Shown here: positions 15,728 to 34,258 of the stretch, one piece after another | Layout of the letters: each line of letters starts with the position of its first letter | How positions within the stretch are numbered: the first letter of the stretch is position 1 | Source of the DNA: Conchocele bisecta | Lineage: Eukaryota > Mollusca > Bivalvia > Lucinida > Thyasiridae | Assembly (NCBI GenBank): GCA_029237695.1 | Contig: CM055269.1 | Location: forward strand, 26,508,956-26,572,955 | Direction of reading: 5' to 3' | DNA: 64,000 nucleotides | The notes under the pieces: model-generated | Database searches by the model: none | Told to the model about the DNA's origin: nothing | What the model saw: the letters and a program-made list of their open reading frames with translations, nothing else | Position numbers and translations under genes: made by a program

Positions 15728-15733
15728 CTTGTG
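15728..15733. repeat. Polinton target-site duplication, left copy
   Basis: CTTGTG, identical to 34253-34258. Six bases is the usual duplication size for Polinton/Maverick integration. Confidence 0.92.
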
Positions 15734-15975
15734 AGTAGTAATGGGTGACACTATGGTACGGTGTTTTAACATGTGGTTTTTCCATAGACAATTTTGTCTA
15801 TGTAAAATACACATGTTAAAAAACCGTACCATAGGTGGCACCCCTTATTACTCCCATTATCAGGGGAGGGTGGAAACTTCTTGTATTACGCTATAGTGGT
15901 TAAAAACCGTACCATAGTGTCACCCTGAACCAATAAGAGCAGTATGTAAGGTATTCATTTCTTGAGAAAATGTAT

Positions 15976-15991
15976 AGCCCTGAAAAGGGCT
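15976..15991 (-). terminator. Histone-type 3' stem-loop, downstream of the Cys-rich gene
   Basis: Minus strand reads AGCCCT-TTTC-AGGGCT: a 6-bp stem with a 4-nt loop, 17 nt after the stop codon at 16008. About 10 nt beyond it comes CTCAAGAAATGA (15966-15955), resembling the purine-rich histone downstream element bound by U7 snRNA. The first stem pair is A-T rather than the usual G-C. Confidence 0.75.
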
Positions 15992-16007
15992 GTTGTCTTT
16001 TAGTAAA

Positions 16008-16220
16008 CTATGTAGTGTTCAGTTTACTCCACATACAGTCGACGACTAACTCGCACGCCTCACAAATTTCGAGGTCTTTAAGGTCCTCTTCTTCAAAAAA
16101 GCCTGCGTCGAGCTCTGGACAATTGTGTTCTTCCCCGTGAGTGTTCAACACTGCATAACATTTTCTACACTCTATGTAACAGTGTTCCCCGCACATAGAG
16201 CATTCCCCGTTCTTCTGCAT
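16008..16220 (-). CDS. Cys-rich mini-protein, 70 aa, unknown function
   Basis: A short acidic protein with many cysteines arranged as zinc-binding pairs: CSMC (7-10), C14, CRKC (18-21), a His/Cys pair near 30-34, and CEAC near 53-56 (positions approximate). The spacing suggests a small RING-, B-box- or ribbon-like zinc fold; no family is recognised. It sits in the insertion that interrupts the left inverted repeat, with its own promoter module (16278-16375) and histone-type stem-loop, so it looks like a self-contained cassette. The TATA box is 58 bp upstream of the ATG. Small zinc proteins in DNA viruses are often host-modulating, but that is only inference here. Confidence 0.7.
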   Translation of the reverse strand: MQKNGECSMCGEHCYIECRKCYAVLNTHGEEHNCPELDAGFFEEEDLKDLEICEACELVVDCMWSKLNTT

Positions 16221-16277
16221 TCTTATGTAGTTGGTTGAACAGTTTAATGGCTAATGAAATATAGCTGCATGTTTTTA

Positions 16278-16375
16278 CTTTTATACACATCAGAAGGATT
16301 GACCTACTTTTGATAGTTTATTCAATTTTCAGATTTTCGACCAATCAGAAAGCACGTTGTATACGCGTTTTGTGA
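16278..16375 (-). promoter_or_regulatory. Promoter module A, copy for the Cys-rich gene
   Basis: Minus strand: CTTTCTGATTGGTCGAAAAT (inverted CCAAT box), then AACTATCAAAAGTAGGTCAA, then TATAAAAG at 16285-16278. The block is shared with 18378-18480, 24137-24234 and, in part, 25262-25348. Confidence 0.8.
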
Positions 16376-16604
16376 TATCCTAGTGGATTGTACTGTTCTC
16401 CCATATAATTTTCAAATATTTTTGACAACTCCAATATTATCAAATACATATGAAAATGTCCTAGAAATATTTTTCATCCACTTCTGTCAACTCTAATATT
16501 GACAAAAGTTAATGAAAATAAATATTGATTGTAAATCAATATATTGGTATTTTTTCAATTTATGGGAAAAATTGAATACAAGATATGTAAAGTTTTAACA
16601 ATAT

Positions 16605-16610
16605 TTTATT
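16605..16610 (-). terminator. Polyadenylation signal AATAAA in the left inverted repeat
   Basis: Minus strand GTTCAATAAAATATTG, 31 nt after the stop of the leftward gene ending at 16641. The same roughly 45-bp module occurs at 23581-23623 and 33820-33862. Confidence 0.75.
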
Positions 16611-16640
16611 GAACAATAACATATTTTACAACATGTATGT

Positions 16641-17182
16641 TTAACATTCAAGAGGTATGCTCTCTATCCGTGTATCGTGATCACTGTCCATGAAGCGTGA
16701 ACAAGAGGGGCACACACACATTGATTCAGTCTCACTAATCTGTACTATTTCCATTGGTATAATCTCTCTCTGTCCAGGAACCGTGAGCAATGGGGCCCTT
16801 AGCCCTGATATTGTTTCAGTTTTTACACTATTCCGTAAGTTCGGTTCACATCGTTTAAATAAGAAATTCACAATATTGTCATTTTTCAACAACTTCGTTT
16901 CTCCATTGTTCAAATGTTAATTGTTCTACTTTAATCCTTGAATCTTTGAAGAACCCCGTTGTTACTAATAGGGCTTCCTTGAACTCATCAAACATCTCTA
17001 TTTTCTCTAATTCTTCCTTGATGATCCTGGTTGTAAGATATTGTTCATTTGATACTTTTAGTTTGAAAGCAAGTATCAATGCTTTCCTGTATGCTATGTG
17101 ATTTATAGATCTGTCAGAGGATTCATTGTTACTGGTTTCCTGATTTGTCCATATGATTTAATAGATCTGCCAGAGGATTCAT
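16641..17182 (-). pseudogene. Small left-arm gene, frameshifted, unknown function
   Basis: The likely start is ATG at 17182 (MNPLADLLNH...), 54 bp after a TATAAAAG box (17243-17236). The frame is broken near 17130-17110 and again near 16890-16880. Downstream pieces read as a helical segment (EELEKIEMFDEFKEALL), an FEQW..EVVEK patch, and a C-terminus with CVCPSC, a possible zinc pair. A 25-bp-scale duplication (MNPL[AT]DL coding twice, near 17180 and 17125) occurs at the start. The helical and Trp-rich layout resembles the next gene upstream (17259-17615), so the two may be distant paralogues. Transcripts would end at the AATAAA of the inverted repeat. Confidence 0.55.
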
Positions 17183-17235
17183 TGTTTCTTCAACTGTGTC
17201 TATTCATAGAATGATTCAGTTATAATCCGTTCCTA

Positions 17236-17243
17236 CTTTTATA
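17236..17243 (-). promoter_or_regulatory. TATA box for the gene at 16641-17182
   Basis: TATAAAAG on the minus strand. It overlaps the 3' side of the preceding gene (stop at 17259), so genes here are packed with almost no spacer. Confidence 0.5.
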
Positions 17244-17258
17244 GTCTTTAATATCAAT

Positions 17259-17615
17259 CTACTTCCAGGATTGTTTGACTTGTTTCTTTAACTGTTCCAA
17301 CCACGATTCATTGGGTCTAAAACTGATTTTGTTTTTAATTTGTACCCACAGTCTGTATGCTTCCAATTTCTCTTGATCGTCCAATGTCATATCTTTGAGA
17401 ATTGGATACCATTCTTCCATAATTTTATAAGGATCTAATTTCTGTAGAGCTGTCAATATGAATAAATCTGTTTGTTCATCTTGATCTGTGAATAAGCACA
17501 GTTGATGTCGTACTTGACTTGGATGTTCAATCTGACATCCATAACAATTGTCATTTACTTCTTTTTTAATTAATAATTGAAGTTGTTCAAACCATACATT
17601 TATTGAATGTGTCAT
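17259..17615 (-). CDS. Small protein with CYGC-x-HPSQ motif, 118 aa
   Basis: Intact frame. An N-terminal helix (INVWFEQLQLLIKKEV) is followed by NCYGCQIEHPSQVRHQLC (residues about 23-40), a Cys/His constellation that could bind zinc, and a helical C-terminal half ending in WLEQLKKQVKQSW. From general knowledge I associate a CxGC..HPSQ..H.C signature with small Polinton/adintovirus-type proteins of unknown role, but I could not check this. A further upstream ATG (about 17700, MMGHNYELW) opens another frame and could be the true start if a base is missing near 17620. A TATATAA box lies near 17797-17803. Confidence 0.65.
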   Translation of the reverse strand: MTHSINVWFEQLQLLIKKEVNDNCYGCQIEHPSQVRHQLCLFTDQDEQTDLFILTALQKLDPYKIMEEWYPILKDMTLDDQEKLEAYRLWVQIKNKISFRPNESWLEQLKKQVKQSWK

Positions 17616-17853
17616 GTATTGTCTTTCTTTGTCGGGGTATTTCTCGGGATTTCTTTATCAGACAAACATCGTTTTGTAACCACAACTCATAATTATGCCC
17701 CATCATTTTTATTGTTTATTATCTAAAAGTATCTGTATAATATTTGTTGTTTCTAGAGCGAATACCTTGAAGATAATGGCTTATGACAAAATGTAAAACG
17801 TTTATATAGGTACAACTGATTACAAGTTTTTTTCTATTCTCAATATTTGTATT

Positions 17854-17869
17854 GGCCCTGAAAAGGGCC
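17854..17869 (-). terminator. Histone-type 3' stem-loop, downstream of the zinc-ribbon gene
   Basis: Minus strand ACAAAAGGCCCTTTTCAGG...: stem GGCCCT/AGGGCC, loop TTTC, 5' flank AAAA, 20 nt after the stop at 17890. An A-rich purine stretch (GAGAATAGAAAAAAAC, 17841-17826) follows at the distance expected for a U7-binding element. Confidence 0.85.
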
Positions 17870-17889
17870 TTTTGTCTTGATTATGTGAT

Positions 17890-18297
17890 TTAACTTTGTT
17901 GTTGATCATACTTGATCACACTTTCAATGTATTTTTTATGGCCACCACAGTCCCGTGATCCACAGCTTGTACATGTCAAGAGAAATCTGTGGGTACACCT
18001 TTTGCTAGGTTTTCCACGAATCGCAAATGATGGTGCCGGAGCTCGTCGGATCTCCTCATCCCAGTCTTCTCGCTGTGGTTGCACACTCGATCTCTCATCA
18101 TTATCCCGGTTTTCTGTAGGCTTCGCCATAGTGTTCTGTGAAACATGTGTTTTGTTGATATCGTTCAGCAAATCATCGAACTTGTTCCAGTTACATACGA
18201 AGCTATTCGAGGCTTCTCTTGCTTCAAATTTCAAATTATAGTAAGGAAATAAATTCCTAACCACGTACTCGTGAAATAAATATATTAAAGTTATCAT
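17890..18297 (-). CDS. Zinc-ribbon-like protein, 135 aa
   Basis: Intact frame. The N-terminal third is hydrophobic/aromatic (MITLIYLFHEYVVRNLF) but not a clear signal peptide. The middle is polar and acidic. The C-terminus has C-x7-C-x2-C-x4-C spacing with a final His (TCTSCGSRDCGGH, about residues 107-119), a likely zinc-binding knuckle. No family is recognised. The gene has promoter module A (TATA 81 bp upstream of the ATG) and a histone-type stem-loop. Its leader shares about 33 bases after the TATA box with the gene at 25383, a strong sign of common regulation. Confidence 0.7.
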   Translation of the reverse strand: MITLIYLFHEYVVRNLFPYYNLKFEAREASNSFVCNWNKFDDLLNDINKTHVSQNTMAKPTENRDNDERSSVQPQREDWDEEIRRAPAPSFAIRGKPSKRCTHRFLLTCTSCGSRDCGGHKKYIESVIKYDQQQS

Positions 18298-18377
18298 CCT
18301 AAATGTGTAGACTCAGGGTTATACTCTGAACAATGTAATGCTTCTCATAGAATGTAAATTAATGATTTTATGATCGT

Positions 18378-18480
18378 CTTTTATACCCATCAAACGGATT
18401 GACCTACTTTTGATAGTTTAGTCATTTTTTCAGATTTTCGTCCAATCAGAAAGCGTGTTGTAAACACGTTTTTACAGTTA
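18378..18480 (-). promoter_or_regulatory. Promoter module A, copy for the zinc-ribbon gene
   Basis: Minus strand: CGTGTTTACAACACGCTTTC, ATTGG (inverted CCAAT), AACTATCAAAAGTAGGTCAA, CCGTTTGATGGGTATAAAAG (TATA at 18385-18378). It overlaps the last codons of the F-box gene upstream. Confidence 0.85.
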
Positions 18481-18735
18481 AAAATTGTGTATTATATCTT
18501 GCGAAAATTTATATACACCAAATGGCCTCATGTTGTAAACTGTGAATGAGTGATCCCTAAAGTCTTTCCTTAGCATGACAGTCCAAAACGCATCATCTTC
18601 AATGATGCGTTTTGCACGCTCGTCAGTGCGTGCGAGACTTTTGGCATTACTCTCCGACAGATACAATTTTATTAACATAACCAGTAACTCCTCTGGTAGC
18701 ACAGCTAACCGACTGTAGTTATTAAATGTGTCCAT
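18478..18735 (-). CDS. F-box-like protein, 85 aa
   Basis: Residues about 13-59 fit the F-box consensus: LPEELLVMLIKLYLSES, a conserved small/polar stretch, then FWTVMLRKDF. F-box domains bind Skp1 and recruit targets to the SCF ubiquitin ligase. There is almost nothing after the box (about 25 residues, no LRR, WD or kelch repeats), so it would be a minimal Skp1-binding adaptor or decoy. The ATG lies at the edge of a 35-base segment identical to part of polB (18734-18768 versus 21912-21946). The gene sits between polB and the zinc-ribbon gene. The domain call rests on pattern recognition alone. Confidence 0.7.
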   Translation of the reverse strand: MDTFNNYSRLAVLPEELLVMLIKLYLSESNAKSLARTDERAKRIIEDDAFWTVMLRKDFRDHSFTVYNMRPFGVYKFSQDIIHNF

Positions 18736-18768
18736 GACTGAATTTCTGGATATTCAAACAACAATTCT
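18734..18768. repeat. 35-base copy of a polB segment
   Basis: Identical to 21912-21946, which is inside the polB coding region. Here it forms the leader and first bases of the F-box gene. Confidence 0.9.
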
Positions 18769-18789
18769 TAATACACAGTGTATATTCAA

Positions 18790-21700
18790 TCAAAGTCTCA
18801 ATGTGTTGTAACCGTATGGTACAGTATTGAAATTGTCAACAATGACACGTTTTGTGTACACAGACCTAAATGTCTTGCTTTGACATTCACTCGTTACTGT
18901 TCTGTTTGCATGTCTCCGGATTTTACATGCATATACAACTTTCACTTCGGTACTTCGGTCCTCGGCACATTGAACATACGTGTCAAAGTTAACTACTTGA
19001 CTTGTGTTGTAATCGAGTGTCAGTCCTTTAACTTTGCATTTGGATTTTATTTCCCCAGCTTTTGTTAGCAACTTGTATGCATAACTCTTTGGTCCTATTC
19101 CTCTAAAACTTATTATTTTATTTCCGGGTTCTTCATCAGTCCATTTACCAAGCCTACTATTGATAATGGGGGGGTTCCAGGAATTATGTTTGTGTATGTA
19201 CATACAACTGTCTGTATCGAAATACAAGACATGCTCATTTAAACTTTTCCAAAACACTGTATAGTTCAAGTCTTGCATATGCTGTTACATATGATCCCAC
19301 TATAACGTTTGATGTTGCATGGGATTCAATGTGTTCAAGTCTAGTTTCATAGTTAACCAATATGAATGGACATTCATTATCAAATATTTCTACGTGTTTT
19401 ACCATTATACATGGATTTGAAATCAAATCAAAATATTTTGAAGGATTATTGATGTATTCCGTTTGGTGTCATGATTTCACGTTGTGCCAATTTACCCCAT
19501 AAGCAATTTAACATAATCTTGGCAAACTGCTCTACGCCCCGTATTTGATTGTATGTTTGATGGATCAAGACAAATACCTTCAGCATCTTCATAGTCCTTA
19601 ACAAATTTTTCTTTGTCTTTTTCTGTTTACACACCATCCTGGATAACCACTTGCTTCTTGTTTGATTTTAAGAAAATTGTCCACATATCCCGAGAAAAAA
19701 TCATTAGATTTTTCCGAAAAATGCCATACTTCATATGCGTCTAACAACGTATAGCCACAGTCCAATGCTTTAAACAATTCTATTGACACCCATGTACCAA
19801 CAAAGCTCTTTCTTCAATTGTATGTGTACACTTTGTAGAACTTTCTTCTGCACATGTTCTACATAATGGAAACATGAGTTTGTTATTACAATGTGTTGGT
19901 AACACTGGATGAAATAGATTGTCCGGAGGGAGAACTTTACATTTTATCAAACCCTCATACTGTCGGATGTTTTCTATATCAATATTTTCTTTTGTTAAAA
20001 TATCGGGGTGTCCTATCGGATATTCTTTGTGTTTACATACAAATGGAATACAATGAACAAATATCAATATATTTGATTTCATCATCTGAATTTTCTTCAA
20101 TATCATATTTAATTTTTATAGCATTACAACGCCCACCAAACAATCCTTCCCTAGGTTCAATCGGATCACAGTTTGAAAAGAATTGTTCGATCAACTTTTT
20201 GTATTCTTTATCAGTTTTCATTTTTAAATCACCCTCCTTGAAACTTTCATTTGTTCATTATTTAGTGTGAATTTTGTAACCACTTACACTGAAATATTCC
20301 AATCTTTCAAATGTTTGAGAATATAAATTTTGCATTGATTCTCCATTTACCGTGTGAATTTTGTAACCACTTACACTGAAATATTCCAATCTTTCAAATG
20401 TTTGAGAATATAAATTTTGCATTATTCTCCATTTACCGGGTTTTTTAGATTACGATTTGGGTAACATTTAGGACAACCATGCCACAGGTCACCGAGAAAC
20501 TCATAGATAGTATTTGATTCTTTGTGAAACCCATCTACAGTATAAGGACCAATTTGGTATTCACCACCATTTTTTGCATGTTGGATAACAATATTGTTTT
20601 CGTGTGCAATACTTTGCATCCATCGAATACCTTTCATTGAAAATTTGCGTTTAATCGGATCTCTGCTTGAAATAATTCCGATCTGATTACTTGGCCATAT
20701 ATTTGTTACGCCAAACTTTGTTACATGCGTCAGCGATTGTACTGGCTTCTAGAAACGGATCTATACCCCCATATTCCATGAATACCTTCCTGAATTCTCC
20801 ACAACCACGTCTCAAAATATCTACATCCGATCGACAATATTTTTCCATTTCTTGTTTGAAATTGAAACAATCGTTGTTTTTCACACGTTCGTTATACCAT
20901 GATAAAAACTTTTCCCTAGCAGTTATCCCCATTGAATCTGGTATAATAAGAGACATCACGTATGGACCAACAATAAGCGGCAAATTTATCAGTATTTTGC
21001 CCAATGTGGAAAATATCCCTTAGCCATATTTCTTTCAATTCAAAGGTTTCTGAAATTTTGCCAATCCTGAATTTATGAAATTATATGAATCAATCAATCG
21101 TATACCTCCAGCTTCCATAACCATGATGTTATTACCGTTCATTATTACCTTCGGTTGTAACACCCCCCTTTCAATGAGATGATGAAGTATGAACTGACCA
21201 TCATACGCTTTGAAATTATGGGCAATAGCTGTAGCACCTTTATGTTGTTTTGAAAACAACCAATTACAAAATTCTGTCAAAGTATTTTTTCCTTCAAATA
21301 CTACTTCTCGTTCTTCAGGAAACCGACTACAACATTCACAATTAAATTCTAATGGTTCATTTATACATTCATCACAAGCTCTGTGTGCAATACAATAGTT
21401 AGGAATGTGTACACCAGTGTCTTGTTGACATTCGAAATCATAAAATATGAAAAACGGTTCCTGATCATCTTCTTCAGTTTTGCTTTTATACTGCTGAAAT
21501 ATGACCAATTTGTGGTCCAAAATTAACAATCTTTTTACAAAATTTACATTTCTTCTTCCCTTTACATGTATGATTCTTCTTGGAATCGGCAAACTGCCCT
21601 CCACATTTACCGCAACATTTTATGAGTTGACAAATTGATTTCTTTTGTCGTCCTTCAATTTGCTTGTGATTTGCAAAACACGTTCCACTATAAAATGTTC

Positions 21701-22683
21701 TGAGACAATCTTTACACTTAATACAATCTATCACATGACATTTTGTTTTGGAACGACATGCCTTACATGAAGTAGGGCATATAATGTGTTTCGCGATTTT
21801 GGTAACCAACATCACACATCTCACAATAGTACCCACATCCAAGAAATCCTACGATATTTGTAATACAGTCATAGTGATCTTGATTATAGAATACATGTAT
21901 TATTTTGGTGTATGACTGAATTTCTGGATATTCAAACAACAATTCTGTTTTCACATGTTGTTGATGAATCTTGATCACATATTCTGGATACATATATTGT
22001 TGTATTTTCTTATATTCTTCAATTCCACAAGCTTTTTTGTGGTGAAATTCCAATTCATCTTCAATAATTTCTTGGCTTCAATACTTTGTAAAGGACGTGA
22101 TGACTGTCGAATTACATTCCAGCGCATATTCCATGTTGAAGAAACTTCTCTATCAGCATGACATTTTCCAACAACAATAGCCCTGGCTAAGCACATATTG
22201 TCTTTTGAATTTTCAATTTTCACAACAGTTTTCTTTTTTTTCGTGAAAACTCGAGAATCAATTTCAGAGGTCATCTTCTTTCTTCCAGAACCTGTTGGCA
22301 TTTTGGTAAACGTTGTTTCGATTGTCATCTCACCATCGTTCAAATTAAAATCCATATTCGATTGTATAACTTTTTCTATTTCTTGTAACAATATATTCCC
22401 AGTCAAATCTTCAACATTTAAGAATGGAATCGGTATCCCCATCTTTAATGCAGGATGATTTAATGTTACCCTGATTTTGTCGTGTGGATCACCATCAATT
22501 CTTTCGATGATTTGATGTACGATATCATCAAATAATACCCCAACGAAATTTTGAGGGTGTTCGTCTACATCGTCTGAATTTTCTTGATCTTCGACTTTTT
22601 TCTTGTATAAGATCATAAAATCTTCTAACATCTTGTGACTCTTCGGTTTCACTCTCGGTGTCCGAGTATGGTACAAGTGACAT
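18790..22683 (-). pseudogene. POLB: Protein-primed DNA polymerase B, at least 11 frameshifts
   Basis: About 1,290 codons in twelve overlapping open pieces. An acidic N-terminus starts at ATG 22683. Cys/His-rich zinc modules follow (GYYCEMCDVGYQNRETH near 21800; CGKCGGQF near 21610). Exonuclease motifs: FYDFE (near 21439), AHNFKAYD (near 21217), YCRSDVD (near 20830). Polymerase motifs: A, YIDICSLY (near 20065), B, KIMLNCLWGK (near 19520), C, YFDTDS (near 19218). This order is that of the family-B polymerases that replicate Polintons by protein priming. All catalytic aspartates are present; motif A is split by one extra T just after SLY. A tandem 87-base duplication lies at 20265-20437. TATATAAG near 22720 suggests a shared divergent promoter with the gene at 22811. 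Confidence 0.93.
20265..20437 (-). repeat. 87-base tandem duplication inside polB
   Basis: 20265-20351 is repeated at 20352-20437 with one base missing in the second copy. Eighty-seven bases is 29 codons, so the duplication itself would be in frame; the missing base is what breaks the frame. It lies in the region just before polymerase motif A. Confidence 0.95.
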
Positions 22684-22810
22684 GTTGAATTTTATAATAA
22701 AGTATTAATCAATTTACAACAGCTTATATACTATCGTTAAACCGTGACGTCTATAAAAGAAGCCATAAATTCCATATGGTCATCATTAGTCTACTGAACT
22801 CTGAAGCGAC
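22684..22810. promoter_or_regulatory. Promoter module B, divergent (polB leftward, zinc-knuckle gene rightward)
   Basis: Plus strand: CAACAGCTTATATACTATCG, CGTGACGTCTATAAAAGAAG (TATAAAAG at about 22752), CATATGGTCATCATTAGTC, CTACTGAACTCTGAAGCG, then the ATG at 22811. The TGACGTC just before the TATA box resembles an ATF/CREB site. Leftward, TATATAAG serves polB. A second copy is at 24690-24790. Confidence 0.75.
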
Positions 22811-23532
22811 ATGGACTCTCAAGCGACAGATCGATCTTCCATTCAACTACAAAAACACGAGGAACATTTTGTTGACTATTTCGAAAGTATGAAATATTGG
22901 CACAAAGGATGCGAAATGAATTTATATGTAAATCCGTTTACTCAATGCAAGTTGAATTCAGCAACATACCGAAAACCTATCCAATAAAACATATTGGAAA
23001 CTTTGTTGCATCGTTTACATCTTACAATTATTTGGGCGACTCTGAGTACCTGATTTCTACAGGAAAGAGGTTTACAAAATTCAGCATCGATGAGAAATAT
23101 GGAGGGGGTGAAATATCACCAAACAGATGTTACATCTGTCAATCAACGGAGCATTGGGCTAATAAATGTAGCCAGAAGCTACAAGGAAAGTACATGGATG
23201 TGTTTGTGAATCCATATTCTCATGAAGTTCAATTTTTGGATTCTCCTAGTATTACCCAAGACCTGTGTGTTGGAAAATTCATGTCTTATTACAACGAAGA
23301 GAGTCATCTGAAACTACCAAGAAATGTTATGTACGCTGGATGTTTCATCTGTAAATCGAAATCACATTGGGCTTGTGATTGTGACCAGAAACCCACACCT
23401 AATACAGTGGATGTTAAGCCCATAGAGAAACCAGTGAACAATCGTAAACGTAAACGTCAAGATGAACCGAGTGTTCAAATCAAGAAGAGGAAAATTGCGG
23501 TTCCAGTCAAGAAGATGAAAATTGACTTTTAA
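22811..23532 (+). pseudogene. Double zinc-knuckle protein, about 240 aa, one frameshift
   Basis: The start is ATG 22811, directly after promoter module B; the frame shifts once near 22930-22950. Two CCHC zinc knuckles of C-x2-C-x4-H-x4-C form: CYICQSTEHWANKC and CFICKSKSHWACDC. The two halves are alike: each knuckle is preceded by a VNP[FY][ST]..V.F segment (NLYVNPFTQ and VFVNPYSHEVQF), so the protein is an internal duplication. The C-terminus is very basic (RKRKRQDE, KKRKIAVPVKKMKI), likely nuclear and nucleic-acid-binding. It ends upstream of an AATAAA module shared with both inverted repeats. Its role is unknown; single-strand nucleic acid binding is plausible. Confidence 0.75.
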
Positions 23533-23605
23533 ATTTATTTGACTTGTTAAATTAATACAATTTTGAATAGACACTATTACACATGTTGTAAATATATTGT
23601 TGTTC

Positions 23606-23611
23606 AATAAA
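23606..23611 (+). terminator. Polyadenylation signal of the zinc-knuckle gene
   Basis: AATAAA inside TTGTTGTTCAATAAAATATT; the module 23581-23623 is nearly identical to the inner edge of both terminal inverted repeats. Confidence 0.8.
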
Positions 23612-23732
23612 ATATTGTTAAATAAATAAGCTTAACTGTAAAAACGTGTTTTGTTATTTATCATTTTTATAATTTATATGGTTAATTCATATGATTTATA
23701 AAATGCAAGTGTTTCTTTCTGGAAAATATTGT

Positions 23733-23748
23733 GGTCCTGAAAAGGACC
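23733..23748 (-). terminator. Histone-type 3' stem-loop, downstream of the 66-aa gene
   Basis: Minus strand GGTCCT-TTTC-AGGACC followed by AC, 14 nt after the stop at 23762. Twelve nt later comes AGAAAGAAAC (23720-23711), a very good match to the U7-pairing histone downstream element. The T-C/G-A pair in the stem differs from the other copies but keeps pairing, a compensatory change that supports a functional structure. Confidence 0.88.
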
Positions 23749-23761
23749 GTTTGATCTCTGT

Positions 23762-23962
23762 CTAATAGAATTCAGACAGATCAGGATATAAGTTATTCAA
23801 TGTAACTTTCCAAACAATTTTTTGTTTGGAAGGCCAATGATAACCACGCCTTGCAAAGAATTGTTGTAATAATTCTTTATTTCTCTCTTTTTCTTCATTA
23901 ACATCATTTTTCCTGGAGAATACAATGTTTCTCAAACGGTGGAAGAATTTTTTGATCTGCAT
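23762..23962 (-). CDS. Small basic protein, 66 aa, unknown
   Basis: Intact frame, Lys/Arg-rich (MQIKKFFHRLRNIVFSRK), then a helical acidic/basic stretch and FFARRGYHWPSKQKIVWKV. No recognised domain. It ends in a histone-type stem-loop with a strong HDE. The divergent region upstream (23963-24136) holds three ATTGG/CCAAT-type boxes (near 24037, 24059, 24085) but not the full module A, and only a weak TATAGTA. The gene is back-to-back with the module-A gene at 24285, and the two may share CCAAT elements. Confidence 0.55.
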   Translation of the reverse strand: MQIKKFFHRLRNIVFSRKNDVNEEKERNKELLQQFFARRGYHWPSKQKIVWKVTLNNLYPDLSEFY

Positions 23963-24136
23963 TCTGGTATGTAAGAATGAATAGAATGAATACTATACGC
24001 TTTAGATCCAGAAATGATTTCAGCTATGATTTCATTGGTTAAAAATTAGAGGATTTGATTGGTTAAGGATTCTGCCCCTCTCATTGGATGAATTTCAATC
24101 CGTTTTTACAACCAAGCTTATGTAAACAAGCTTTGT

Positions 24137-24234
24137 TCACAAAACGTGTTTACAACACGCTTTCTGATTGGACGAAAATCTAAAAAATTACTAAACTACC
24201 AAAAGTATGTCAATCCGTTTGATGGGTATAAAAG
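24137..24234 (+). promoter_or_regulatory. Promoter module A, copy for the gene at 24285
   Basis: CACAAAACGTGTTTACAACA, CTTTCTGATTGG (24163-24171), ACTACCAAAAGTATGTCAAT, CCGTTTGATGGGTATAAAAG (TATA 24227-24234). The TATA box is 51 bp from the ATG, and the ATTGG-to-TATA distance is about 60 bp. Confidence 0.85.
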
Positions 24235-24284
24235 CATGTGTTTTTTAACACATACTTCACATGTTTCATTGAACACTCAAAGAA

Positions 24285-24500
24285 ATGAATACCGATCGAA
24301 GCAATATGATGGGAAGGCGGATCTCAGATTTGATTGAAGTCGTAGGGTCGATGCAGAAAGATATAGAAACGCTGCAAATGGTTACGGCTGACCTGTTGAG
24401 GAAAATAAAGGAAAAGCCAAAACCTGCTTACAAAGAATTTGAAATGGAGGCGGCAAGAGTTTTACGACAGAAGCAAAACCTGACACTACAGGCGTTTTGA
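24285..24500 (+). CDS. Small coiled-coil protein, 71 aa
   Basis: Intact frame. Residues about 12-45 form a heptad-like helix (ISDLIEVVGSMQKDIETL, then MVTADLLRKIKEK), followed by a proline hinge and a second basic helix. A dimerising helical protein is likely; no family is recognised. It has promoter module A and a histone-type stem-loop 87 nt after the stop. Confidence 0.6.
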   Translation: MNTDRSNMMGRRISDLIEVVGSMQKDIETLQMVTADLLRKIKEKPKPAYKEFEMEAARVLRQKQNLTLQAF

Positions 24501-24586
24501 GAGTTAAAACTCGAGAATCAAACAATAAATGGCGTCGCACTACCATTGAATATTAGTTTGTACAGTTGTACACTCTAAGCAAAAAC

Positions 24587-24602
24587 GGCCCTTTTCAGGG
24601 CC
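24587..24602 (+). terminator. Histone-type 3' stem-loop, downstream of the 71-aa gene
   Basis: AAAAACGGCCCTTTTCAGGG...: stem GGCCCT/AGGGCC, loop TTTC, A-rich 5' flank, 3' flank ACCACA, a near-perfect match to the animal histone consensus. CGAAAAGA at 24617-24624 sits where a U7-pairing element is expected. Confidence 0.88.
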
Positions 24603-24689
24603 ACCACACATTATTACGAAAAGATTACTTTACAATTTATATCCTAATAACTTTGTATATTGTATCATTAGTTGTTAAACATTAAGCAT

Positions 24690-24790
24690 TCTGCAACAGC
24701 TTCTATACTATCGTTACATCGTGACGTTTATAAAAGAAACCACAAATTCCATATGATCATCATTAGTCTACTGAACTCTGAAGCGAAAGC
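24690..24790 (+). promoter_or_regulatory. Promoter module B, second copy
   Basis: CAACAGCTTCTATACTATCG, CGTGACGTTTATAAAAGAAA, CATATGATCATCATTAGTC, CTACTGAACTCTGAAGCGA: the same order as 22690-22810, about 90% alike over 100 bases. The start codon that follows GAAGCGAC in the first copy is lost here, and translation would start at 24819. Confidence 0.8.
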
Positions 24791-24818
24791 ATTACATTTT
24801 TCAGAGTACAACCCTGTT

Positions 24819-25260
24819 ATGGATCAACTAAGAAAACATTGTGATCAGCATCCGGAAGTCGAAGAATGTAAATGTTTCGATTTTTCTCAAAAATTGTACT
24901 ATAGGCATAGTAAACGGAGAATACACTATTAATAATGTAAACATTTATGAATCACCCAAATATCAATATTATCCTTTCATAGGGTACATAACAAACAATT
25001 CTAGATTTATACCGTTTGGTATTTGTCCAAAGATAACTGTGATAGAAAAAAATAAAATGTACAGGTTAGTAAGTTCTAGAACATACGGGGAGGATAGTCA
25101 GATTTACTTTGACAAGGATCTTAAACCTTTGCTTCATCTATACAGCCATAAAATTCCTTTTTCAAGGGATTTGAACATAGAAACTAAAATTATTAAGAGT
25201 TATCCCAGTATCCCTCAATTAAATGTGAGAAAAGAGTACTGTAAATGGAATATTGGTTAA
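24819..25260 (+). pseudogene. Protein of about 146 aa, one frameshift, unknown
   Basis: Starts MDQLRKHCDQHPEVEECKCF in one frame and continues in another from about 24900 (INNVNIYESPKYQYYPF..., RLVSSRTYGEDSQIYFD). Beta-rich and aromatic, with no recognised family. It is driven by the second promoter B copy and has no obvious AATAAA or stem-loop of its own; the next promoter module starts at its stop codon. Confidence 0.5.
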
Positions 25261-25261
25261 C

Positions 25262-25348
25262 AGCTATCGTTTTGTAAGACACACTGTGATTGGTCACTTG
25301 ATTTTTATCAATTTCTAAGTAGGTCAATCCTTCTGATGGGTATAAAAG
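25262..25348 (+). promoter_or_regulatory. Promoter module A, diverged copy for the gene at 25383
   Basis: ATTGG (25289-25293), AAGTAGGTCAATCCTTCTGA, TATAAAAG (25341-25348). After the TATA box, ACGATCATAAAATCATTAAT continues identically with the leader of the zinc-ribbon gene at 18297. The upstream ACGTGTTTACAACACG part is not kept. Confidence 0.75.
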
Positions 25349-25382
25349 ACGATCATAAAATCATTAATTTACATTCGATACT

Positions 25383-25910
25383 ATGGCTGACAACAGAAGT
25401 TACGATTTTGCCGCTCAAGATTTTGATATATTAACAGAGGCGATGAATGAAATATATCAACCAACCTTCCAACCACCACAACAACAACAACAACAACTAC
25501 AACAGCAGCCAACTGTTCCTGTATACATTCCAATAGAGAAGAAGAAAGAAGATTCCATGATATTGAAAGAACTACAGAAACTGAACAAACAATTACAGAA
25601 AGGAATATTACAGAAACTAGAGAACATCGCATCACGACATAGTGTTCAACTGGACCGTATGACAGTCACATTATCAAAGAAACTAGAGAAACAGTGTGAA
25701 AATCGGGACTTGACATTTAACACAAAACCATTGAAAGTGCCTATCAAGTTTGAATTGGACAAGAAAACAGTGGCACAGATCAGTCAACATGCAGAAAGGG
25801 CCCTGTGTGATACAGTTGACGAAAAAATACATTCCCATAAAAGTGGGATTGGTGCACATCGTAAACACATTCGTCCAGAAAAAGAAAATCATTTGATTCC
25901 ACGAAAATAA
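25383..25910 (+). CDS. Gln-rich coiled-coil protein, 175 aa
   Basis: Intact frame. N-terminal acidic head (MADNRSYDFAAQDFDILTEA), a polyglutamine/proline tract (residues about 31-44, PPQQQQQQLQQQP), a strong coiled coil (about 57-85, ILKELQKLNKQLQKGILQKL) and a basic tail. Acidic head plus Q-rich tract is the make-up of some transcription regulators, but no DNA-binding domain is visible; a structural or scaffold role is equally possible. It has promoter module A and a stem-loop at 26116, with an unusual A-rich 3' UTR between. Confidence 0.6.
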   Translation: MADNRSYDFAAQDFDILTEAMNEIYQPTFQPPQQQQQQLQQQPTVPVYIPIEKKKEDSMILKELQKLNKQLQKGILQKLENIASRHSVQLDRMTVTLSKKLEKQCENRDLTFNTKPLKVPIKFELDKKTVAQISQHAERALCDTVDEKIHSHKSGIGAHRKHIRPEKENHLIPRK

Positions 25911-25929
25911 AAAAAGTACCAGTACTCGT

Positions 25930-25975
<46 letters not shown>

Positions 25976-26110
25976 AATAAATAAATAAATAAAAAAAAAA
26001 AATTTGTAAAAAAAATATTGTACCAGTACTCGTGTCTTTTTTATTTTTAAAATTGTACCAGTACTAGTGTCTTTTTTAAAAATAAAAATAACAGTACTCG
26101 CACCTTTACC
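25911..26110 (+). repeat. Poly(A) and GTACCAGTACTCGTG repeats in a 3' UTR
   Basis: Four imperfect copies of [GT]ACCAGTACTCGTG (25917, 26020, 26054 and a partial one near 26090) separated by A/T runs, including about 38 A's (25934-25971) and an AAATAAATAAATAA run. Slippage-prone. It separates the 25383 gene from its stem-loop. Confidence 0.7.
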
Positions 26111-26115
26111 CAAAC

Positions 26116-26131
26116 GGCCCTTTTCAGGGCC
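26116..26131 (+). terminator. Histone-type 3' stem-loop, downstream of the Gln-rich gene
   Basis: CCCAAACGGCCCTTTTCAGG...: stem GGCCCT/AGGGCC, loop TTTC, 5' flank CCAAAC and 3' flank ATCCCA, close to the canonical histone flanks. CGAACAGAA follows about 14 nt later as a weaker purine element. It lies 206 nt after the stop. Confidence 0.82.
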
Positions 26132-26226
26132 ATCCCAAACTATTCGAACAGAATTCCTTTTCAAATAAAACATTGCTATACACATGATAGTATATCATTA
26201 TACATCTGGACCTTGTACTGTAAACA

Positions 26227-26896
26227 ATGGAGAACGAAGACCTGTTGTCTTTGTTATTTCAACATCCCTGTAACATTTATATAGCAGGTCCGAGTGGATG
26301 TGGAAAAACTGAAATTGTACAAAAGATTATTGATTACCGCAAAGATTTATTTAATATTGTACCCGAAAAAGTAATATGGTGTTACAAAGAATGGCAACAC
26401 ATTTATACTATTATGCAAGAAAAGTTCAATTTCCTCAAATTTATTGAAGGTATCCCAGATGATGAAAATGAAATTGTATCCGATGTAACAATTCCACATC
26501 TTGTAGTATTTGATGATATGTTAGGAGAAAAAGATGAAGAAAAAATAAAATTGTGGTTTACAAGAAAAGGTCATCATAGAAATTCAAAGTGTAATAATAT
26601 ATTACACAAAATATGTTTCAACAAAATAAATCGAGTAGAACTATAAGTCTTAATTCTCGTTACATGATTTTATTTAGAATGAACGTGATGGGTTACAAAT
26701 TAAAACATTATCACGTCAAATGCAAAGTCCTCACTTAATTTCAGCCTACAATGATGCTACTTCTCAGGAACATGGTTATTTGTTAATTGATTTTCAATCA
26801 CGAATTAAAAAACAATTTCGTTTAAGAAGTGACATTTTTCATCGCTGGATTACAGATAAGGATGTTAGAGGACCTACTATTTATTCTCCAATATAG
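26227..26896 (+). pseudogene. ATP: DNA-packaging ATPase (FtsK/HerA, A32-like), two frameshifts
   Basis: Walker A GPSGCGKT at residues 21-28 and Walker B HLVVFDD at 91-97, followed by the FTRKGHHRNS sensor-like patch typical of Polinton and adintovirus ATPases. The reading frame shifts near 26595 and near 26680; downstream pieces still read as this family (YITQNMFQQNKSSRTISL, then HGYLLIDFQ, ending RGPTIYSPI). Total about 223 codons, normal for the family. It would pump the replicated genome into the capsid. First gene of the rightward block. Confidence 0.9.
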
Positions 26897-26938
26897 TAAT
26901 ATAGATATCAGTATTGTACTTTCTATCAAGGTACCAAC

Positions 26939-27911
26939 ATGGCTTTCTCATACACATCAGGAAATATTATTCATGCTTTAAGAAATTTGAGTGATGAACA
27001 ACATAAACTTACAAGAGAAATTAATATTGAAATGGATTTAAAAGAGATATTGAAATGGTTTTCAGTAGCTGCTCAAAATATAGTTGAAAATAAAATAAAA
27101 TTACCAAAACAAACAGTGCGATTTATAGAAAAAAATAAAAAAGATGTTAAACAATTAGCGGATCCTACAGTTGATGATGATACAAAGAAAAAAAATAATA
27201 TTAAACCCCAGGTGGTGGAGGATTTTTAGGTGGTGTAATTATTAGAAGTTTACTTCGTTGGACAGGTACAAAAAACGTGAAAAATAGAAAACTAACCAAA
27301 AAACAAACTAAAAATAAAACAATTAAAAAACAAAAGAAAACACGAAATAAAAAATCTCAAAAGAAAACAATTAAAAAGAAAACTAAAAAGCAAAATGAAT
27401 CTTCAAGATTTTCTTCAATGTCTAGTATGTCTACAAATCCTAGTCCTGTTAATTCACGTAGATCTATATCATCGTTTCATACACCCTCATCGACTGGGAA
27501 ACCTCAGTTCACATCGACACCTATTTCCATTAGATCACCACAATTACCATTTACACCAACTTCTAGCAAATCTGGGATCATCATACAATGCATCTTTCCC
27601 AGTAATTCGGGTTCATTTGAGAGACAGCCTCCAAAAAAAAAAAAGAAGTACAAGTATGGCCCTGAAATTGAAAATTGGTTTAGACTTGTTAATAAAACAA
27701 CAAAAGAACATGAAAAAAAAAACTGTTACAGGAATATAATGCATTTGATGAACATCCAATAGCTAGGTTTTCACCGTTAAGAACACCTTTGAGATCTCCT
27801 AAAACCAAAGAAGCTGTCAGAAACAAACTTATTCAAAAAGAAAAGGAAATAAAACATCTAAAAGATTTTGCGTTTAAAAATCCAGAATTAAGAGTAAAAA
27901 TTAAAAATTAA
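26939..27911 (+). pseudogene. Basic Ser/Pro-rich protein, about 320 aa, two frameshifts
   Basis: An N-terminal helical domain (SYTSGNIIHALRNLSDEQ, NIEMDLKEILKWFSVAAQN) is followed by a glycine patch (PGGGGFLGGVIIRSL), a Lys-rich stretch, a Ser/Pro/Thr-rich middle and a C-terminal helix. Frame breaks fall at a CCCC run near 27208 and a long A run near 27711-27720. Part of the rightward structural block; a virion-associated or DNA-binding role is plausible. I cannot name the family with confidence. Confidence 0.55.
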
Positions 27912-27987
27912 AAAGCTACTTAGCTGTATAAAATACAGTTATTAATTAATTTTGTATCATTCAATATAAAGTATTGTTAGTATAAAG

Positions 27988-28380
27988 ATGGGTAAGGTCA
28001 AGAATAAAACCAGTAAAAAGAAACCATTAATTAAAAAACATGGTGCTATGCTTTTGGCTATAGCTAATGAACCTAAAAAATATCGTGAAAAATTAATAAA
28101 ATATGCACCAAATCATATAATTAAGTGTATTTGCGAATGTTGTCACAATCTCTTAAAAGGCAATGTCACACTTACATCTGATCAGAAACATAAATTGTAT
28201 CCTAAGCGTAAGCATCTCAGACAACTTGTATCAAAATCAATTTCAATTAAGAAAAAGAAAAATATTATAAATCAGACAGGAGGTATTTTACCATTTTTAC
28301 TTCCATTAATAGGTAAAGCTATTCTAGGTGGTGCTCTTGGTGTTGGTGCACGAGCAGGTATTCGAGCTCTAGTTAAATAA
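27988..28380 (+). CDS. Small basic conserved Polinton protein, 130 aa
   Basis: Intact frame. A Lys-rich N-terminus, a central Cys-containing helix (HIIKCICECCHNLLKGNV), LRQLVSKSISIKKKK, and a C-terminal hydrophobic GG-rich segment (TGGILPFLLPLIGKAIL, GGALGVGARAGI). The layout of a helical basic domain plus a GG-x-LP-hydrophobic tail is one I associate with a small protein found widely in Polintons and adintoviruses, possibly membrane-active or DNA-condensing; the function is not established. Its stop codon overlaps the next start (TAATG). Confidence 0.65.
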   Translation: MGKVKNKTSKKKPLIKKHGAMLLAIANEPKKYREKLIKYAPNHIIKCICECCHNLLKGNVTLTSDQKHKLYPKRKHLRQLVSKSISIKKKKNIINQTGGILPFLLPLIGKAILGGALGVGARAGIRALVK

Positions 28381-29080
28381 TGTCAGTCCGAAAAATGGCA
28401 CTTGTTCCTTTTCATTTACTGGAAGAAATGAATAAATGGAAAATAGAACAAAGTCAAAAATCACCTCAACTTTACCGGATCCACATATTGTAAATACAGC
28501 TAAACTTCAAAAAAATTTATCTAACCTTTTAGAAAGAACAGATTTATCGGAAAGTGAAAAGGTAAGACAGCACGGAGAAACATTACATAAATTTCAGGAA
28601 TCATTTAAAAAAGTTTTAGAACCTCAACATGTTACAGTAAATGAAAGTACAAAAAGACCACTTAATGATAGGATTTTACAAAGTATACCAAAAACAATGC
28701 AAAGAAAGGCAGAACTTCTTTTAAGCATGCTGAAAGATAATCCAAAAATCAGTTGGGATGAAAATGGTTTAGTAACATATAAAGGAAAACTTATAAAGGG
28801 ATCGAATATTATTGATTTAGTTAATGACACTTTACGTCAAAGAAAAGGATTTAACCCCAGAGGTTGGGAGACATTCAGTACAGCTTTACAGGAACTCAAT
28901 ATACCACAAGACGTAGTTGGTAATAGACAACGATGGAACTGGATGCATAAATATCAAACTGATACATCTGACATTGAGTCGGATTCGATATTTAGTACAC
29001 CTAAAACAGTAATGAAACATCGTAAAACACCAAAATCAAAAATTTCAGTCACCCCAACTGGTATAAAAAAGAAAGTCTGA
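28380..29080 (+). pseudogene. Conserved MALVPF Polinton protein, about 233 aa, one frameshift
   Basis: The ATG at 28380 overlaps the previous stop. Reads MSVRKMALVPFHLLEEM, then the frame shifts near 28455-28465. The rest is a long helical region (TAKLQKNLSNLLERTDL), LNDRILQSIPKTMQRKAELL, SWDENGLVTYKGK, GSNIIDLVNDTLRQRKGF and NPRGWETFSTAL. I recognise this pattern as a protein commonly next to the integrase or capsid genes of animal Polintons; its role is unsettled. Confidence 0.7.
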
Positions 29081-29098
29081 TTCAACATATCTTAAAAA

Positions 29099-30214
29099 AT
29101 GGGAGCCTTATTAAAGCATAAAGAGAAGAAACTTAATTCATTACTAAAGAAAATATATTATGATCCAAAAAGTTCAATTGCCTACACAAGTGCAAAACAC
29201 TTGTATGATTCAATTAAACGAATAAACACATTTTCAGATGTTAGATTAAAACATATACAAGAATGGTTGAGCAGACAGAAAACATATACACTTCATAAGC
29301 AAATTCAAAGACGTTTTACACGTCGTAAGACAATAGTAGGAGGTATCGATCAACAATGGCAGGCTGATTTGGCAGATATGCAACAATTCTCAGGTGAAAA
29401 TGAGAATCAAAGATATCTATTGTGTGTAATAGATGTATTTTCAAAATATGCATGGGTAATACCCCTTCCTAACAAAACGGGGAAAACATTGATTAACGCG
29501 TTTGATTTGATACTAAAAACATCAAAACGCAAGCCACGTTCTTTACAAAGCGATAAAGGAACGGAATTTAAAAATAAAGAATTTCAACATTTCTTGAAAT
29601 CTAAACACATTCATTTTTTCACAACCGAAAACCCTGAAACTAAAGCAAGTATAGTTGAACGATTTCAAAGAACTTTGAAAACACGTATGTGGAAATATTT
29701 CACATATCATCAAACTAGAAAATATATTGATATTTTACAAAATATTGTTGATGGATACAACCGAACATACCATCGTAGTATTAAGAGGACCCCAATTTCT
29801 GTCAATACCTCAAATGAAATTGAGGTTACACATGCATTGTATGGAATGAAACAAGCTATTCCAACCAAAAACAAATTACATGTCGGTGATTTGAGTTCGT
29901 ATTAATAAAACAAAACGCACATTTGAAAGGGTTATCTTACCAAACTGGACGAAAGAATTATTTAAAATATTTCATATTAATAAAAGTTTACATCAACTTA
30001 TAAAATTGAAGATCTTGATGGCGAAAAAATAATGGGTACATTTTACGGAAAGGAAATTCAAGGTATAAAAGATGATGAAATATATGAAATTGAATCAGTT
30101 CTTGCTCGACGTACAAGACGTGTAGGTAATAAAACAATCAAGGAAACTAAAGTTCATTGGATGGGTTATCCGTCAAAGTTTGATAGTTGGATTTCATCAT
30201 CAAACATAATATGA
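29099..30214 (+). pseudogene. INT: DD35E integrase with C-terminal chromodomain, two frameshifts
   Basis: The core is intact for 268 codons. Catalytic triad: D90 (QWQADLADM), D152 (LQSDKGTEF), E187 (KASIVERFQRTL), so D152 to E187 is 35 residues, the classic rve spacing. The frame breaks near 29890 and near 30000. The last piece (YEIESVLARRTRR, then VHWMGYPSKFDSWISSSNI) is a chromodomain, which in such integrases is thought to read chromatin marks at the target. The enzyme makes the 6-bp staggered insertion seen at the element ends. The final codon overlaps the next ATG (ATGA). Confidence 0.92.
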
Positions 30215-30492
30215 ATGAACAAGATATAATTAAAAACGGGAAAATAGAAAAACAAGAGTTTTTATTTTGTGGTAAACGAATACCAAAAAATCAATTTCAA
30301 TATATTTCTCAAGTAGTTATAATATATGCAATTGTTGCAACAGCCATCATTCATTTAAGTATCCAAAGTCCTAATCGCGAATTGTGGCTCGTTCTTTTAA
30401 GTAGTTCTCTTGGATACATTTTGCCAAGTCCCGGGTTAAAATTTAGCAAAAAAACACAGACAGGCTTCGATTTTACAGAGGGTAAAAAATGA
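30211..30492 (+). CDS. Two-helix membrane protein, 93 aa
   Basis: The start chosen is ATG 30211, overlapping the integrase stop as ATGA. Two hydrophobic segments (VVIIYAIVATAIIHLSI, about 42-58, and LWLVLLSSSLGYILPSP, about 67-83) are joined by a short loop; both ends are polar. Small membrane proteins with an LGY.LP motif occur at this position in other Polintons. The role is unknown; capsid-membrane interaction or entry/exit are possibilities only. Its stop again overlaps the next start (ATGA). Confidence 0.7.
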   Translation: MNEQDIIKNGKIEKQEFLFCGKRIPKNQFQYISQVVIIYAIVATAIIHLSIQSPNRELWLVLLSSSLGYILPSPGLKFSKKTQTGFDFTEGKK

Positions 30493-31391
30493 ATTCATTT
30501 TACGTAACCTTACTGAGTGATAGTTCTATGGATATTTATCCATCAAATACACAATGTTGTTTCAAAGTTAAATTACCTCGAACAGTTCGTATCGATAAAG
30601 AAAACTGGGAAATAGCATTAACGGAATTAATTATTCCTTCACAGTTTTTAAATATCACCAAAGACGAAACAGAATTTAATATTATAACAAAAGATTTAAC
30701 TTTCTACTCGGATGTTTCAGAAATAAAAAATAAAAAATTTGATATAAATGAGATAGGCTTTGGTGAAGATGGTACACCTGTTAAATGGATTATCAATTTT
30801 AATTTTCAACCTGGATCCTATTCATCAATAACTCATGTATTGGAAACAATTGATAATATCATTCAAGATTCTTTTGGCGATATTTTTAAAAAAAACAAGC
30901 AAGCGATTAACGTTTCATATTCTCCGGGTATGAAACGTCCAAAATTTAGTTTCCATAAAATTCGCAAAACAGGAATTAAATTTAACTCTACATTGTTTTT
31001 AAAGTTAGGTGGAGATCCAGAGCTAGTAAACGATACATTTTTTTCAAACAGTAATGCAAATGATTTTTTTCCACATTTGTCAAATTTAAATGAGGGGTTT
31101 GAATCATATTTGTTTATTTACTCTGATATTGTTGAATATTCGATTGTAGGACATATTCAAGCTCCGATTTTAAGAGTTGTACCATTCAAAACAAAACATC
31201 AAATTCAATTGAAAATGATATAGGTAGTCACATATTAACCATGAATTTTTAAACTTACATTATAGCCTATATCAAAATCTGAATTTGATACAATTCATAT
31301 AAATATAAGAGGAGATTCTGGCAATCCTGTTCATTTTGTTCTTGGAAAGTCTATGGTGAAGTTACATTTTAGGAAAAGAAAAATAGATTGA
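30489..31391 (+). pseudogene. mCP: Penton-type minor capsid protein, about 300 aa, frameshifted near the C-terminus
   Basis: The first 244 codons are open: MNSFYVTLLSDSSMDIYPSN, the family's N-terminal signature, then WEIALTELIIPSQFLNIT. After the break near 31210-31270 the C-terminal hallmark is found in another frame: FDTIHINIRGDSGNPVHFVL, then KLHFRKR, ending at TGA 31391. This is the single jelly-roll protein expected to form capsid vertices. It starts by ATGA overlap with the membrane protein. Confidence 0.85.
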
Positions 31392-31393
31392 AA

Positions 31394-31795
31394 ATGCATC
31401 CTGTATATCGAGGAGTTACACGACAGTATGGGGCAGGATTAGGATCCTTGTTCAAATCTGCAATTAGAACCGTTTCACCATTTATAAAACCAATAATAAA
31501 AACTGGGGTAAATTCTTTTAAAAATGAAGGAATGAAACAAGGAATAGGTTTAGCTCAAGATATTTTTCTTAAGCACAAAAATCCAAAGGATGCAATTATT
31601 TCACGAGGTAAACAAACAATGAATTCACTAGGAAAATCGTTTTTTAAGAAATTAGGTATAAAAACAAAGAAAAATAAACGGAAACATCAGTCGCGTTCAA
31701 TACATCGAAGAGTTAAGGTGCATAAATCAAGTAACAATCAAAAAGGTCTAAAAAGGAGAAAAATATCTAACAGAAATTTAGATATTTTTGACTAA
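31394..31795 (+). CDS. pVI/pX-like minor virion protein, 133 aa
   Basis: Intact frame from ATG 31394, two nt after the penton stop. Reads YGAGLGSLFKSAIRTVSPFI, an amphipathic glycine-containing helix, then VNSFKNEGMKQGIGLAQDIF and a strongly basic C-terminus (KKNKRKHQSRSIHRRVKVHK). Placement between the two capsid genes and this amphipathic-plus-basic build match the conserved Polinton virion protein compared with adenovirus pVI/pX (membrane disruption, DNA binding). The match is by pattern, not alignment. Confidence 0.7.
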   Translation: MHPVYRGVTRQYGAGLGSLFKSAIRTVSPFIKPIIKTGVNSFKNEGMKQGIGLAQDIFLKHKNPKDAIISRGKQTMNSLGKSFFKKLGIKTKKNKRKHQSRSIHRRVKVHKSSNNQKGLKRRKISNRNLDIFD

Positions 31796-31803
31796 AATAA
31801 AAT

Positions 31804-33114: not shown

Positions 33115-33178
33115 CATTGGACAATTATGAACAAAACAAATCCTAAAAGTAACTTATTGGTGAAATCAGCATCCAAAG

Positions 33179-33766: not shown

Positions 33767-33819
33767 TATTGCATGTACTTTTGTAAAGATCAAATATGAA
33801 TATATCTGGTCTATAATTC

Positions 33820-34252: not shown

Positions 34253-34258
34253 CTTGTG
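34253..34258. repeat. Polinton target-site duplication, right copy
   Basis: CTTGTG, identical to 15728-15733. Confidence 0.92.

Follow-up and report, generated by a model that had tools for sequence, protein, structure and literature searches.

Here, we describe a Polinton/Maverick-type element in the bivalve Conchocele bisecta in which five small genes end in hairpins of the kind found at the 3' ends of histone mRNAs. The element occupies positions 15734–34252 of a 64,000-nt stretch of contig CM055269.1 (assembly GCA_029237695.1, positions 26,508,956 to 26,572,955), referred to below as “the window”; the genes are designated hsl1 to hsl5. Among the ends of animal mRNAs, only that of histones is known to carry no poly(A), and it is taken to mark replication-dependent histones. 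When SLBP is bound to such a hairpin, cleavage involving the U7 small nuclear ribonucleoprotein (snRNP) occurs just after the hairpin and no poly(A) tail is added; SLBP abundance peaks in S phase. Judging from the sequence comparisons below, we consider it probable that the mRNAs of the hairpin genes are made in the same way, i.e., that they are SLBP-bound, cut with the help of U7, and free of poly(A). Under this scheme, host SLBP would bind the hairpins at the ends of the five small genes, the U7 snRNP would cut just after each hairpin to leave no tail, and expression would come as a burst in S phase, at high SLBP levels and at a time at which DNA replication is open to the element. The element would then have two classes of gene: small hairpin genes, and hairpin-less genes for replication, integration and, going by gene order, presumably capsid formation.

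All five hairpins are matched by RF00032, the Rfam model of the histone stem-loop, at 31.2–39.0 bits (E 1.8e-5 to 2.3e-8), and no sixth was found in a low-threshold scan (E up to 10) of positions 10000–32000; the scan of the entire window was run at the curated cut-off of 34 bits alone. Two of the five pass this cut-off: the hairpin of hsl4 (24587–24602, plus strand; 39.0 bits, match 24582–24627) and that of hsl3 (23733–23748, minus strand; 36.3 bits, match 23708–23753). The others are those of hsl5 (26116–26131, plus strand; 33.8 bits, E 1.9e-6, match 26111–26156), hsl2 (17854–17869, minus strand; 32.9 bits, E 4.4e-6, match 17829–17874), and hsl1 (15976–15991, minus strand; 31.2 bits, E 1.8e-5, match 15952–15996). 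Each has a 6-bp stem, a 4-nt U-rich loop, and the conserved A/C flanks. The exact histone form occurs five times in the element and five times in the whole window, as compared with a mean of 0.01 in elements simulated with a first-order Markov model.

The hairpins follow open reading frames (ORFs) of 70 amino acids (hsl1, 16008–16220, minus strand), 135 amino acids (hsl2, 17890–18297, minus strand), 66 amino acids (hsl3, 23762–23962, minus strand), 71 amino acids (hsl4, 24285–24500, plus strand), and 175 amino acids (hsl5, 25383–25910, plus strand). The gaps from stop codon to hairpin are 16, 20, 13, 86 and 205 nt for hsl1 to hsl5, respectively, and the hairpin is on the sense strand every time. 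An initial reading of the window from its letters alone (the “sequence-only reading”) had placed five stem-loops at these positions and strands, and had suggested running the Rfam model over the element; the model matched the same five sites. The stop distances given there (17, 20, 14, 87 and 206 nt) were right to within one base. The consensus stem proposed there, GGYYYT/ARRRCC, fits four of the hairpins and fails at hsl1, which reads AGCCCT-TTTC-AGGGCT and has an A-T base pair. The compensatory stem change described for hsl3 (GGTCCT-TTTC-AGGACC) is borne out, and the hsl1 hairpin, too, has a compensated change. In a comparison of 11 distinct rows, eight from Polintons and three from the host, both sides of the stem change together at three of the six pairs; the rows were picked by their stems, meaning that full pairing is not itself evidence, and it is the varied pairs that count.

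Copies were searched for in the window's own genome (1.89 Gb). RF00032 scored 75 places genome-wide, 68 of them above the cut-off. For 38 of the 75, the surrounding sequence was read: 32 lie in Polinton copies and six in histone clusters, a set that is not random but consists of the eight places with the highest scores, 24 on contig C1 (one of which also belongs to the top eight), and a small number of further places. The genome holds at least 177 matches to hsl5 and at least 150 to hsl3, fragments included. In 20 hsl3 copies, hand-picked blind to the hairpin from that half of the match list in which divergence is greater, the 6-bp stem is kept in 17 (damaged in L074, L086 and L090), and the stem plus a TTT loop in 16 (the loop being altered in L081). 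In 20 hsl5 copies, hand-picked down the match list and likewise blind to the hairpin, the exact 16-mer is kept in 17 and damaged in L050, L052 and L061. In alignments that span the hairpin, it is 97.6% identical for hsl3, 99.3% for hsl4 and 98.4% for hsl5, and the 80 nt preceding it are 96.1%, 91.7% and 77.6% identical, respectively; the hsl4 figure is biased, most of its loci having been fetched through the hairpin. These per-position figures cover hsl3, hsl4 and hsl5; hsl1 had one aligned copy, and none was found for hsl2. At locus L010, hsl3 is 66% identical in its coding sequence while the hairpin is identical at 16/16 positions, with a reduced downstream element. Most copies are close kin, so their retention of the hairpin shows persistence in a young, large family more than over deep time.

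The genome provides host histone ends for comparison. The host core histone genes examined end in GGCCCTTTTTAGGGCC, with a TTTT loop in 12/12 rows from nine distinct places; some of these genes were assigned at just 35–53% identity, and the overlapping loci L010/L019, L011/L041 and L014/L040 are counted twice in the hairpin rows. In the Polinton copies, by contrast, the loop is mostly TTTC, the last base being G, T or A at hsl3 of L030, L032 and L078, respectively. The Polinton hairpins are not simply recent host histone ends. A host H1-like ORF (L040, 829–1160) is followed by GGTCCTTTTCAGGACC; this hairpin has a TTTC loop, differing in this from the core histones examined, and matches the hsl3 hairpin exactly.

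In the host H3 and H4 genes, a downstream element, CAAGAAAGA, lies ~11 nt past the hairpin. Sites past the five Polinton hairpins match this core at 7, 6, 8, 5 and 4 of nine bases for hsl1 to hsl5, respectively (joint P 0.018), a likeness carried by hsl1 and hsl3. The hsl3 downstream element, CCAGAAAGA (23714–23722, minus strand), lies 10 nt past its hairpin, and that of hsl1, CAAGAAATG (15956–15964, minus strand), 11 nt past; possible elements follow hsl2 (ATAGAAAAA; 17829–17837, minus strand) and hsl4 (TACGAAAAG; 24615–24623, plus strand). Over the 26 nt downstream of the hairpin, none of 1000 shuffles scored as high as hsl3 against host H4. Comparable tests liken hsl1 to host H3, H4 and H2A (P 0.002–0.003), hsl2 to the H2B element (P 0.003), and hsl4 to the H2A element (P 0.004), with P values that are uncorrected and fail correction for 30 tests. 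A further gene, found in other copies (L010) and ending in a GGCTC hairpin, was matched by none of 1000 shuffles in its likeness to H4, H3 and H2A over 26 nt. The purine-rich U7-type elements that the sequence-only reading had placed after every hairpin are a mixed case: the likeness is strong at hsl3, reaches nominal significance at hsl1, hsl2 and hsl4, and is lacking at hsl5; purine content itself was non-significant (P 0.12) and was dropped as a mark of the element.

The protein that would bind the hairpins is encoded by the host: five exon matches to the SLBP family (PF15247) exceed the cut-off, at the canonical locus and two more loci. Two closely similar SLBP-type RNA-binding exons stand at C17:49804172 and C17:51228350 (L065 and L066), the canonical SLBP being on contig C8. 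These two loci are a possible second host SLBP, which might prefer one loop type.

The hairpin genes also resemble one another at their 5' ends. A promoter module consisting of CCAATCA, GTCAATCC and TATAAAAG precedes hsl1 (16278–16375, minus strand; repeat I3), and recurs before hsl2 (18378–18472, minus strand; repeats I6, I7, D14 and D17), hsl4 (24137–24234, plus strand; repeats I3, I6, I7 and D20), and hsl5 (25287–25348, plus strand; repeats D20 and I11), in the last case with CCAATCA on the reverse strand (25287–25293) and GTCAATCC to TATAAAAG at 25323–25348. Upstream of hsl3 (24034–24087, minus strand) are three CCAAT boxes, one of them CCAATCA, and no TATAAAAG. The GTCAATCC–TATAAAAG pair occurs at four places in the window, before hsl1, hsl2, hsl4 and hsl5 and nowhere else, and CCAATCA at five places in the element, one before each hairpin gene. 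The module is present at 4/5 hairpin genes and 0/15 other genes (P 0.001, from hand-entered counts over hand-listed genes). Where hsl4 and hsl2-like hairpin genes occur in other copies of the element, they retain GTCAATCC, usually with TATAAAAG. Two distinct host H4 promoters that were compared do not have the module. A second promoter class, TGACGT with TATAAAAG (22704–22809, plus strand; repeat D6), precedes a zinc-knuckle gene without a hairpin; the other copy of this 106-nt repeat, 90% alike, is at 24681–24786, and both precede hairpin-less genes.

Promoter, gene and hairpin look as if they move together as cassettes within the element. The left terminal inverted repeat (TIR) carries a 491-nt insert (15898–16388, minus strand) that holds the hsl1 promoter module, ORF and hairpin, while its counterpart in the right TIR is 21 nt long (34068–34088). 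Other copies of the element have a hairpin-less gene, an hsl2-like hairpin gene, or a cysteine-rich gene with another hairpin in the slot that separates hsl4 from hsl5. Taking promoters, cassettes and hairpins together, we lean slightly toward a broader interpretation, in which this Polinton lineage would run a whole regulon via the host's machinery for making histone mRNAs, with a common promoter module, tail-less SLBP-bound mRNAs made only in S phase, moving cassettes, and more top-scoring hairpins than the histone genes themselves (32 versus 6 of those read).

Several observations weigh against the histone-type route. Three of the five hairpins score below the Rfam cut-off. At hsl5 (up to 99.4%) and hsl3 (98.1%), conservation is no lower in the bases immediately past the hairpin than in the hairpin itself; in a young family, retention at these two genes therefore does not single out the hairpin. 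The hsl1 hairpin form was seen in just two other loci (L035 and L037), no other locus examined has the hsl2 hairpin together with its flank, and hsl2-like genes elsewhere end in an hsl4-type 3' end. Within 450 nt of the GGCTC-hairpin gene, none of the promoter motifs occurs. Searches of the host for a U7 gene found none: the Rfam model gave none at E 1 among 65 candidates scored, and two U7 patterns gave 4 and 12 places, of which 10/16 were examined and none was a convincing U7 (the reversed-pattern control of the second gave 19 places, versus 12). Lastly, in two distant Polintons of the same genome, whose integrases are 41% and 43% identical to a Branchiostoma query, the Rfam model and a search for the form found no hairpin in the 9.9 kb before each integrase; in one of them, a form search alone found none in the 9.0 kb on the other side. 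The sequence-only reading had named a lack of conservation in related Polintons as grounds for rejecting its proposal. The stem-loops are kept within the lineage, as sampled in one genome, and are absent from the pieces of the two distant Polintons, and the trait seems limited to one Polinton lineage. For relatives elsewhere, IMG/VR scans with the integrase, an integrase profile and an hsl3 profile gave no match confirmed by tblastn, and two flanked histone-hairpin patterns gave 0 places; a shorter hairpin pattern gave six, none with an RF00032 match at cut-off.

If SLBP binds these hairpins, the mRNAs could still be polyadenylated further on, with SLBP acting only on translation or stability, or with the hairpins serving as an SLBP decoy. 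Such an arrangement would fit the AATAAA/ATTAAA hexamers near four of the five hairpin genes, which also tell against tail-less mRNAs. At hsl4 (23 nt past the stop codon) and hsl5 (61–170) they precede the hairpin, and at hsl2 (169), hsl3 (222) and hsl5 (253) they follow it. It would fit, too, the poor downstream element of hsl5, which has 4/9 core bases and a null 26-nt shuffle test, a further point against U7 cleavage there. Nonetheless, the 330 nt inspected at hsl1 are free of such hexamers, and hsl1 and hsl3 have histone-like downstream elements at the right distance, which in histones serve U7 cleavage; we regard polyadenylation beyond the hairpin as unlikely. As a separator of gene classes, the hexamers were rejected, since they fail to distinguish hairpin from non-hairpin genes.

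Two other explanations strike us as much less probable still. The hairpins could be the element's own terminators or processing marks, similar to those of mimivirus and merely resembling histone ones, as might be imagined from the fact that genes on both strands of a single virus-like element end in them. The hairpins nevertheless reproduce the histone form exactly, down to the loop and the A/C flanks, and have RF00032 scores and host-like downstream elements to match, and there is no RNA polymerase among the 18 element ORFs searched against Pfam, making this account very improbable. We give just as little credence to the hairpins being passengers that were copied from the 3' ends of host histone genes, multiplied by duplication, and now have no function. 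The hsl4-type hairpin and flank recur behind an hsl2-like gene, showing that 3' ends do move; the hsl3 flank is close to that of host H4; and at two genes the flank is as conserved as the hairpin. Passengers would sit poorly, however, with five different flanks, a TTTC loop unlike that of the core histones examined, compensated stems, retention in 17/20 copies at each of two genes, and a sense-strand position just after the stop codon every time. That the element borrows the histone mRNA route, as the sequence-only reading had proposed, is the explanation best served by the sense-strand hairpins after stop codons, the retention at hsl3, hsl4 and hsl5, the compensated stems and the host SLBP, and in part by the U7-type elements.

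The proteins of the hairpin genes have few recognizable features. That of hsl1 contains nine cysteines and has no Pfam family above cut-off; that of hsl2 has a CxxC motif near its C-terminus; and for hsl5, a search of the protein database at E 0.001 returned no relative. The hsl3 protein ends in NNLYPDLSEFY and has three environmental relatives (P0121–P0123), with which it has FFARRG..WP and NLYPDLSEF in common. We take LYPDL, which occurs twice in one of these relatives, to be of the ALIX-binding late-domain type, as in p9 of equine infectious anaemia virus, and the hsl3 protein may recruit the endosomal sorting complex required for transport (ESCRT) via this motif.

The remainder of the element is that of a Polinton. 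Both ends have TIRs and the 6-bp target-site duplication CTTGTG (15728–15733 and 34253–34258), and long palindromes lie inside both TIRs (15751–15834 and 34152–34235), with 41-nt arms that are 90% complementary. The right part holds a retroviral-type integrase (29099–29905, plus strand; PF00665, 9.9e-14), a chromodomain piece (30032–30214; PF00385, 5.7e-7), an adenovirus-type cysteine protease (PF00770, 1.9e-5), and an ATPase-like gene (26227–26646) with weak A32/IVa2 matches in Pfam. For the ORFs that we take, from gene order, to encode capsid proteins, Pfam gave nothing above cut-off. In the left part are broken pieces of a presumed polymerase and several small genes. The pieces on 18790–22683, presumably a protein-primed PolB, match other genomic copies and one distant Polinton; the sole piece submitted to Pfam (21975–22631) had no match. 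A weak F-box-like match (E 0.086) was obtained for an 85-amino-acid ORF without a hairpin (18478–18735, minus strand). This copy of the element is damaged, as its integrase region is interrupted by six stop codons.

Our searches of the open PubMed Central literature, subscription papers lying outside their scope, turned up no report, among the papers listed, of a Polinton with a histone stem-loop or SLBP. The Polinton 3' ends share with histone mRNAs the 6-bp stem, the TTTC loop, the A/C flanks, a downstream element at 10–12 nt (at some sites), a short stop distance, and small single-ORF genes. They differ in that the genes are non-histone, the element is mobile and virus-like, and the loop is mostly TTTC rather than the TTTT of the host core histones. 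Conversely, the element has the TIRs, 6-bp target-site duplication, integrase with chromodomain, ATPase-like gene and adenovirus-type protease of Polintons/Mavericks; what sets it apart is a class of small genes with histone-type 3' ends, which is absent from the examined pieces of two other Polintons here. In mimivirus, an RNA hairpin likewise marks the end of viral genes, but those hairpins are variable in sequence and give rise to poly(A) tails, whereas the Polinton hairpins have the histone mRNA sequence.

Histone-type ends on several unrelated genes offer a natural test of the requirements of the SLBP/U7 machinery. If the proposed route is correct, the mRNAs of the hairpin genes would be hidden from poly(A)-selected sequencing, and the element would represent a new way for a mobile, virus-like element to tie viral genes to the cell cycle of its host.

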